From: Candidatus Zixiibacteriota bacterium | GTDB lineage: Bacteria > Zixibacteria > MSB-5A5 > GN15 > FEB-12 | Assembly: GCA_017999435.1 (NCBI GenBank) | Contig: JAGNLV010000002.1 | Span: 310,001-374,000, forward strand | Direction: 5' to 3' | DNA length: 64,000 nt | Shown: positions 61,461 through 64,000 of the stretch, piece after piece | Layout: every line of letters starts with the position of its first letter | Numbering within the stretch: the first letter of the stretch is position 1 | Position numbers and translations under genes: made by a program | Notes under the pieces: model-generated | What the model saw: only the letters and a program-made list of their open reading frames with translations | Database searches by the model: none | What the model was told of the DNA's origin: nothing

Positions 61461-62501
61461 TCAGGCGTCCCGTGCGGAGGCGCCGGGGGACGGCCGGGCG
61501 AAGAAGAGGCGCAGCATATACCACACCAAGCCCAGCGCCAGCACGAAACAGACCAGGAAAACGAGGAATACATCCCACTGCGGCCGGATGGGCCAGGCCG
61601 CGGGGTCGAAATGCCCCTCAAGCTGGAGGAGGCGGACATTGTGGCGGACCACGACCATCCCGAGCAGCGACACAAACAGCATCGCCCCGGCGCCGAAGAA
61701 TTTCCTCGTGAAGAAGAAATGGAGCGACCCGAGCGAGAGAATGATCGATGCGGAGAGCCACCAGATCGCCGGCGTGTGCATGAAAGGCTTGAGGATGTCC
61801 GCGAGCGACAACAGGTAGACGAGCCCGACCGCCATCGCCCCCACCATGCCCCAGAGGAAGAAGTTTCGGCCGAGCGCGAAAGCATCCTCGTGCCGCCGCC
61901 CGAGGAGACCGATGAAGAATCCGCCGATGGTGACGGCGCCGAGGAGCATGTGGAGCCAGCGCCAGAGCCACTGGCCGAGGTGCGGGTTGACCCGGAGACC
62001 GGAAGGGTCGCCGGCGTAAAGGACGGCGGCGAGGCCGGGACGCTCGGCGATCGAGAAGAGGTTGCTGTAGGCAAACGCCACATACGCGAGCAAGAGGAGC
62101 GCGGCGGTCAGAAAGGCGGGACGCCGGGGGGAGCCGGGCGCCCCGAAGGCCGCCGCGTAGAGGAGATAGTAGGCAACCATGACGGCGCCGACGATGCCGA
62201 GGAAGAACCAGGCGGTCACGATCGCGGCGCTGTACACGGGCACGGGGTACACCAACTGCACGAACAGCAGGGGAGCGACGCCGAGGGTGACGGTGGCGGC
62301 CATGGCGGTGGGAAACAGTTTGACGAACTGCGCGACGACGGGGTGGCGCCACTTGTCGGCGAGGCGGCCGAAAACGACGATGAGGAGACCGCCGACCAGG
62401 AAGTTCATGGCGGCGAAGTGGAGGGTGAGGGTGAGGAGGTGCAGGACAGTGACCAGCCACAGCGGGGCCGGGAGAAAATTGGGATCGGGCAGCGGGTTCA
62501 T
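61461..62501 (-). CDS. Multispan membrane partner of a bd-like cytochrome
   Basis: A 346-residue protein with about nine membrane helices. The opening VLHLLTLTLHFAAMNFLVGG with paired His recalls the heme-binding first helix of CydA-like quinol oxidoreductases, and HLGQWLWRWLHMLLGAVTIGG has a further His pair. No CydB-like feature is certain. Its ATG (62501) overlaps the stop of the upstream gene by four bases (ATGA), so it belongs to the same complex as the heme-c-fused bd-like subunit. Function inferred from context. Confidence 0.65.
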   Translation of the reverse strand: MNPLPDPNFLPAPLWLVTVLHLLTLTLHFAAMNFLVGGLLIVVFGRLADKWRHPVVAQFVKLFPTAMAATVTLGVAPLLFVQLVYPVPVYSAAIVTAWFFLGIVGAVMVAYYLLYAAAFGAPGSPRRPAFLTAALLLLAYVAFAYSNLFSIAERPGLAAVLYAGDPSGLRVNPHLGQWLWRWLHMLLGAVTIGGFFIGLLGRRHEDAFALGRNFFLWGMVGAMAVGLVYLLSLADILKPFMHTPAIWWLSASIILSLGSLHFFFTRKFFGAGAMLFVSLLGMVVVRHNVRLLQLEGHFDPAAWPIRPQWDVFLVFLVCFVLALGLVWYMLRLFFARPSPGASARDA

Positions 62502-64000
62502 CGGGCGCCTCCTCGCGTTGCGGCCGCCGGCGTGCCGGCGGGCGCGCTCAGTGTCTGCAGAAACTGAATGAGCGCGACGCGCTCGGGTTCGCCGCCGGTG
62601 AAGGGGGGCATTTCCTCGCCGAGATCATCGGACATGTCCAGGAGTGTCCGATACTCCTCTTCGCTCAGACCGGCCAGCGACTGAGTCTTGTCGTTGAAGC
62701 CGCCGAGGACGTGACAGGAACCGCAGCGGACCTCGTAGACGCGGCGGCCGAGGTCGACGCCGGAGAGCCCGCAGACCTCGGCGAAGGGCCGGCGGTCGGT
62801 GCGGGCGGCGAGGTGGGCGGCCAGCAGCCGGGCCTCCTCGGGCGTGCCCGTCCAGGGTGGCATGTTGCCGCGCATGGCGCCGATCCCCTGCACCATGGCG
62901 GTGATGAACTCCTCATCGGCGCCGTCGAAAAACGGCTTCAGCGCGTTGTAGTTCTCCAGCGAGTGGCAGCTCCGGCAGGCGCGGCGGAAAAGATCGGCGC
63001 CTTCGTCGCCGGTGCGATAAGCCATGTGCGCGAGCATGCCGTCGGCGCGATAGTCGGCCGCCCGGGCGACCTCTACCCCGCTCGCGTACATGTAGCCGGT
63101 GATCACGTAGGGCTTGCGGAGGGCTTCGCGGAACCATTCGTACGAGCCGAACCAGACCAACCCGAGGGCCAGAGCAACCGCCGCGACTTCTGTGCGCCAG
63201 GCCCGGGGAGCGAGGAGTCCGAGGATGGCCAGCAGGGCCGCGATCGCGGCGGTCAGAAGATAGAGGAGATCGAGGGCGGCAAACGGGATGTTCATCGTCT
63301 GGCGGGCGGCCGCCATGAGATCGGCGGGGATGTCGCCGACATACCAGAAGAGGGAGGGGATGACGACCGCGAGCCCGACGAGGCCCCAGACCGCATTGTA
63401 GCGCACCAGGCGCACTCGCGCGCCGGGCGCGGGAAGGCGGGCGGCCACCGCGAGGGCGCAGAGGCCGGCGAGCATGATGCAGATCCCCGTGCGCAGCACG
63501 AGCGAGGACCAGTAGGTCGGGTTGAAGAAACCGTCCCAGAATCGGCCGGTGGCCAGCCAGTCGCCCGGGGTGAGCATGAAGGTCACGATGCCGTTGATGA
63601 TGACCAGGGAGAGCCAGGCGGCGCCGAAATAGATCCACCCAATGATCAGGTGGCGGCGCGGGGTGAGGCAGTCCCAGCCGTAGTAGTAGAGCAGGGCGGC
63701 GAGGATCTCGATGATGAAGAAGCACCACTCGGCGGCCCAGCCCCAGACGAAATTGCGGATGAGGACCGCGGTGGCGGCCGGGTTGAGCAGACCGATGATG
63801 AACCAGATGCCGACCCCGGTGAGGGCGCCGAAGACCACCGTGGTGAGGACGAAGAACCGGCTCAGCCGCCGCAGGAATCCGAGGTGGTCATCGTCGCCGC
63901 GGCGGCGGGCCGCACGCTCGGCCACGACCAGGTACAAGCCGCCGCCGATGGCGAAGTGAGAGACGAAGACGTGGACGACCGCGATCACGGCCATGAGCAC
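62498..64000 (-). CDS. Cytochrome bd-like subunit I with two C-terminal heme c domains (partial)
   Basis: The gene runs off the right edge; 500 residues are visible. Residues 1-290 have eight helices like CydA: HVFVSHFAIGGGLYL, GALTGVGIWFIIG, EWCFFIIEILAALLYYYGWD, ends with a helix at 272-290. Residues 320-490 carry two heme c motifs, CRSCH (342-346) and CGSCH (426-430), with Met-containing loops (MPPWTG; MPPFTG). A quinol-reactive membrane half would thus pass electrons to attached c hemes. It pairs with the membrane protein at 61461. Confidence 0.8.
   Translation of the reverse strand: MLMAVIAVVHVFVSHFAIGGGLYLVVAERAARRRGDDDHLGFLRRLSRFFVLTTVVFGALTGVGIWFIIGLLNPAATAVLIRNFVWGWAAEWCFFIIEILAALLYYYGWDCLTPRRHLIIGWIYFGAAWLSLVIINGIVTFMLTPGDWLATGRFWDGFFNPTYWSSLVLRTGICIMLAGLCALAVAARLPAPGARVRLVRYNAVWGLVGLAVVIPSLFWYVGDIPADLMAAARQTMNIPFAALDLLYLLTAAIAALLAILGLLAPRAWRTEVAAVALALGLVWFGSYEWFREALRKPYVITGYMYASGVEVARAADYRADGMLAHMAYRTGDEGADLFRRACRSCHSLENYNALKPFFDGADEEFITAMVQGIGAMRGNMPPWTGTPEEARLLAAHLAARTDRRPFAEVCGLSGVDLGRRVYEVRCGSCHVLGGFNDKTQSLAGLSEEEYRTLLDMSDDLGEEMPPFTGGEPERVALIQFLQTLSAPAGTPAAATRGGAR

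Follow-up and report, generated by a model that had tools for sequence, protein, structure and literature searches.

The question raised by this locus is what a membrane protein resembling the CydA subunit of cytochrome bd does once two heme c domains have been attached to it and, in particular, in which direction electrons pass between these c hemes and the membrane core. To our knowledge, the characterized cytochrome bd enzymes are quinol oxidases. An earlier note on the window (the whole stretch of 64,000 nucleotides analysed here, G000:C2:310001-374000) had proposed a complex whose electrons exit through the c hemes and not through a d heme.

The gene pair and its surroundings

The genes concerned all lie on the same strand:

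62498..64000 in the window (full gene from the ATG at 64039 to the stop at 62498), minus strand: subunit I, 513 aa, a CydA-type eight-helix membrane core followed by two cytochrome c domains
61461..62501, minus strand: subunit II, 346 aa, nine helices, most likely a diverged CydA-like paralogue
L003:6148-6582, minus strand: GNAT acetyltransferase gene, upstream of subunit I
L003:6667-7344, minus strand: DUF116 gene, upstream of subunit I, beyond the GNAT gene

The initiation codon of subunit I (G000:C2:374039, window 64039) is preceded by GGAGG and is located 39 bp past the window end. Subunit II starts within an ATGA overlap with subunit I, with GAGGAGG ahead of it. The open reading frames on the minus strand, the AlphaFold2 models and the Pfam matches bear out what had been read from the letters, namely eight CydA-style helices followed by CRSCH and CGSCH, and an ATGA-coupled partner of nine helices (62501-61461). 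The earlier note also placed part of the system outside the window and looked for the rest of the operon to the right. The first half of this stands, the missing part being the first 13 codons of subunit I only (64001-64039). The second does not: the next gene upstream, after a gap of 108 bp, is the GNAT gene, which is not an electron-transfer gene, and no further electron-transfer operon follows to the right. A GNAT gene is found upstream of the pair in at least 7 relatives, and in several Zixibacteria loci. The pair forms a two-gene unit, to which the GNAT gene may also belong.

On the other side, a convergent gene just downstream of subunit II (window:60966-61322, plus strand) codes for a small HXXEE-domain membrane protein (PF13787, E=2.9e-6). 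Further away, a plus-strand frame of 906 aa (window:57095-59815) without a Pfam match resembles a large secreted protein with a sorting-like C-terminal end.

Fold and conserved residues of the two subunits

The profile comparison with CydA called for by the earlier note gave a match above the cut-off: the first half of subunit I is recognized by Pfam Cyt_bd_oxida_I (PF01654, E=1.4e-13, profile positions 5-240 of 418). The protein also matches Cytochrome_CBB3 (E=3.5e-14). Because of these E-values, and because the ordered pair recurs across related loci, the likeness cannot be put down to chance. The nearest solved protein by sequence is subunit I of the Geobacillus bd oxidase (5doq, E=3e-5). 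The AlphaFold2 model (mean pLDDT 93.2) has eight long helices ahead of the two c domains, and its core (residues 1-310) superimposes on ten solved CydA chains with Z of 29-32 and rmsd of 2.6-3.8 over 302-311 residues (VIA-align). The next structural matches, the membrane subunits of Alternative Complex III (ACIII) and PsrC, reach Z of 14-18. As far as the model and the sequence go, subunit I has the CydA fold and is a member of the cytochrome bd superfamily. A link to the Geobacter Cbc complexes, which had also been considered, finds no support in any profile result, since neither subunit matches the NrfD or cytochrome-b-type Pfam families. The Cbc complexes and ACIII likewise combine membrane subunits with c hemes; the window pair, however, has no NrfD or iron-sulfur partner alongside, and its match to CydA is far stronger.

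For the residue comparison, the window protein and its relatives (50 sequences in all) were aligned with 5 proteins of a second type and with 14 canonical CydA proteins, among them that of E. coli; equivalences were derived from HMM alignments (TM1-TM6, and the C-terminal segment separately) and from structural range offsets. The segments of subunit I that matter are the following:

63956..63973, minus strand: H23 to H28 in TM1; H23 corresponds to E. coli H19
63707..63730, minus strand: E104 to E111 in TM3, corresponding to E. coli E99 and E107
63110..63139, minus strand: EWFREALRKP, residues 301-310; E305 corresponds to E. coli E445 and R308 to R448
62963..62977, minus strand: CRSCH (residues 355-359), the first heme c motif; M393 of subunit I is its candidate distal ligand (69/69 relatives)
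62711..62725, minus strand: CGSCH (residues 439-443), the second heme c motif; M477 of subunit I is its candidate distal ligand (68/69 relatives)

The equivalents of H19, E99, E107, E445 and R448 of E. coli CydA, which form the heme d/b595 pocket, occur in 50/50 relatives, in 5/5 proteins of the second type and in every canonical CydA. Judged from the alignment, subunit I carries the active-site residues of the cytochrome bd superfamily (H19, E99, E107 and E445). The reverse holds for H186 and M393, the ligands of heme b558 in E. coli CydA: their equivalents are absent from 50/50 relatives, the two columns being mostly L/F/I and V/P/A. The Q-loop of the quinol site, with its K252 and E257, falls in gap columns in 55/55 sequences (the 50 relatives and the 5 of the second type). 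The canonical quinol-site residues, whose absence the earlier note had said would count against it, are thus missing from subunit I. By these features the pair would not qualify as a canonical quinol-oxidising bd enzyme (qOR), lacking the b558 ligands, the Q-loop and a CydB partner recognizable by sequence. In a FastTree phylogeny, a long branch splits canonical CydA from two OR-like types, and the rooting does not bear on the monophyly of the window type.

Both c domains combine CxxCH with a conserved methionine and hence offer candidate His/Met ligands; structurally they align with c551 and c6 at Z of 7-8. Hits that reached other c-type cytochromes through the c domains only were left out. 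Since eight helices precede the c domains, these should share the side of the membrane with the N-terminus, in CydA the periplasmic side.

Neither Pfam nor NCBIfam recognizes subunit II, and PHROGs yields no more than weak hits. Its AlphaFold2 model (pLDDT 95.2) consists of nine helices in a fold like those of both CydA (Z 25-27) and CydB (Z 25.5-27), while hhalign gave no significant match to either by sequence. Shallow profiles revealed no relation between the two subunits, but deeper alignments did: the core of subunit I and subunit II are then paired with a probability of 86-92% and E of 5e-6 to 6.5e-8, H23 of the one facing H28 of the other. Because of its fold and this relation to subunit I, subunit II is most likely a diverged CydA-like paralogue with a predicted cytochrome bd fold. 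H28, R181, R286 and R290 are invariant, and H184 and M282 are found in 68/69 relatives. The conserved histidines point to the binding of at least one b heme. There is no glutamate among its conserved positions, those of TM3 included, so it should not provide an additional O2 site of a known type.

Relatives and place in the bd superfamily

A match to subunit I was found in 34 of 61 genomes (the window genome and relatives of the same family and order), and about two dozen of these genomes show the same two-gene arrangement in the loci taken from them. Across GTDB genomes, relatives are encoded at 562 places or more; the best 80 of these belong to Zixibacteria, Acidobacteriota (Holophagaceae), Geobacter, Desulfuromonadaceae, Krumholzibacteria, Planctomycetes, Verrucomicrobia, Calditrichota and others. 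In every related locus with enough downstream DNA, subunit I is followed by a relative of subunit II, and the 4-base overlap is shared by 53 of the 68 pairs analysed. The Pfam matches, the fold and this recurring pair support the description of the locus as coding for a membrane protein related to CydA, with two heme c domains attached to it, and for an obligate second membrane subunit. Two loci (L030 and L031, from G046 and G049) contain shorter relatives of subunit I, of 358-365 aa, with a CydA-like core and no CxxCH.

The bd superfamily has been split into qOR, OR-C and OR-N, the quinol site being found in qOR (PMC13189123); for OR-N, cytochrome c is the presumed electron donor (PMC10839748). 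The window pair can be likened, by description, to the OR-N CydAA' of Nitrospira and Nitrospinota, also paired CydA-like paralogues thought to be fed by cytochrome c, from which it differs in having two c domains fused to subunit I. With the canonical CydAB of E. coli and Geobacillus it shares both subunit folds and the five pocket residues of subunit I; it differs from them in the loss of H186, M393 and the Q-loop, in its two c hemes and in a partner without detectable sequence relation to CydB.

OR-C members carry a C-terminal heme c. Murali, Gennis and Hemp are said to have defined this family of the superfamily in the ISME J in 2021. By its features, subunit I fits OR-C, if this family is understood as the same CydA active-site core without the quinol site and with a C-terminal heme c; no subfamily is named for it here. 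The pair is widespread and most likely belongs to a branch already classified. The literature searched contained no experimental or biochemical study of any heme-c-fused bd enzyme.

Direction of electron flow

Since the O2 pocket is intact, the quinol site lost and the c domains periplasmic, we consider it probable, with some reservation, that the pair is an OR-C-like member of the bd superfamily, a two-subunit cytochrome c:O2 reductase taking its electrons from a periplasmic cytochrome c and not from quinol. Cytochrome c, once reduced by a bc-type complex, would dock where subunit I ends, at its two periplasmic His/Met c domains. Its electrons would then pass to two high-spin hemes held by H23, E104/E111 and E305 (of the d/b595 type, or all b), where O2 would be reduced to water. 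Subunit II would occupy the position of CydB. Heme occupancy, the direction of the electrons, O2 as the substrate and the role of subunit II are all parts that we infer. The proposal that electrons leave by the c hemes is then probably backwards, the d/b595 pocket being present in 50/50 relatives and the b558 and Q-loop residues in 0/50. On the oxidase reading, the locus predicts a bd-type enzyme acting as a copper-free cytochrome c oxidase, and it offers an expressible target for probing O2 reduction, and the donor behind it, in the OR-type branches.

The neighbours of the pair in other lineages have to be weighed against this. In 9 of the 19 Geobacter-order genomes with a full-length subunit I, a gene for an octaheme cytochrome of the tetrathionate reductase family (TIGR04315) lies directly downstream on the same strand; in the Geobacter-type loci L100, L109, L110, L112 and L115 it lies about 100-150 bp past the pair. 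Nine Geobacter-type loci have a third CxxCH in subunit I. At L117, a gene for an octaheme protein like HAO or hydrazine dehydrogenase (HDH) lies upstream. Finally, a CydA-c relative (L036:1-3247, G006:C233) continues at its C-terminus into an additional multiheme domain, with 4 CxxCH in the sequenced part; its contig breaks off within this fusion gene, and a partner gene of 348 aa lies next to it. The octaheme link was rejected as a general feature, since it occurs in 9/19 genomes of a single order and no such neighbour was seen at most other loci.

These multiheme neighbours could take quinol-derived electrons through the c hemes, or could themselves deliver electrons to O2. The former would suit a modified version of the earlier idea, in which the pair is a quinol:cytochrome c oxidoreductase, or works in reverse: electrons from a new quinol site in subunit II would travel over b hemes, reach the c domains and end up in multiheme reductases of the periplasm. 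The retention of H28, H184, M282, R286 and R290 in subunit II is in keeping with such a site. We nevertheless hold this rather unlikely: subunit I is without the canonical quinol site and Q-loop, a bc-type cytochrome b is already present in 17 of the 18 carriers tested, and at the window locus there is no octaheme gene, nor is there any TIGR04315 member over the cut-off in the window genome. Moreover, the equivalents of E99, E107 and E445 are invariant in the octaheme-linked relatives too, which is why the cytochrome c:O2 reductase is kept first. What can be said against it is that the pocket ligands, identified by alignment, could hold electron-transfer hemes, that the invariant His and Arg positions of subunit II fall outside its account, and that the octaheme neighbours could be acceptors of quinol electrons. 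A related scheme, which we think unlikely, would have the bd-type module carry electrons in either direction between the quinone pool and the c-type cytochromes of the periplasm, with octaheme enzymes of N or S metabolism attached in some lineages and quinone reacting through the CydA-like subunit II in place of a Q-loop.

The gene content of the carriers bears on a third reading, namely that a cytochrome c-fed pocket of the bd type serves mainly against NO or peroxide, or detoxifies O2 in anaerobes, and does not conserve energy. Anaerobes such as Geobacter are indeed among the carrier groups, and the window genome already has heme-copper and canonical bd oxidase genes. This reading nonetheless seems to us quite improbable, as no detoxification gene was seen recurring beside the pair (among neighbours whose names are only partly annotated), and as the pair is the sole oxidase candidate found in three near-complete genomes (G008, G036 and G037, 96-100% complete). 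These three contain the complex and a bc-type cytochrome b; heme-copper oxidases (over the Pfam cut-off), CydB and the NosZ propeller were looked for in them without success. Their gene content agrees, indirectly, with a cytochrome c:O2 reductase, although they may be anaerobes using other c-linked acceptors. That the pair can be the sole oxidase candidate affects how aerobic capacity is read from genomes.

Two further loci of the window genome may be mentioned. One carries a second CydA-like pair (L034:4852-7791; G000:C4, 517852-520791) with one CxxCH in each subunit, the first of which has the same pocket residues and, across 419 aligned columns, shares 33% identity with subunit I. In the other (L035, G000:C3:219001-229000), some 3.3 kb separate a canonical cydAB from a NorB/heme-copper-like gene (PF00115, in a frame of 827 aa).
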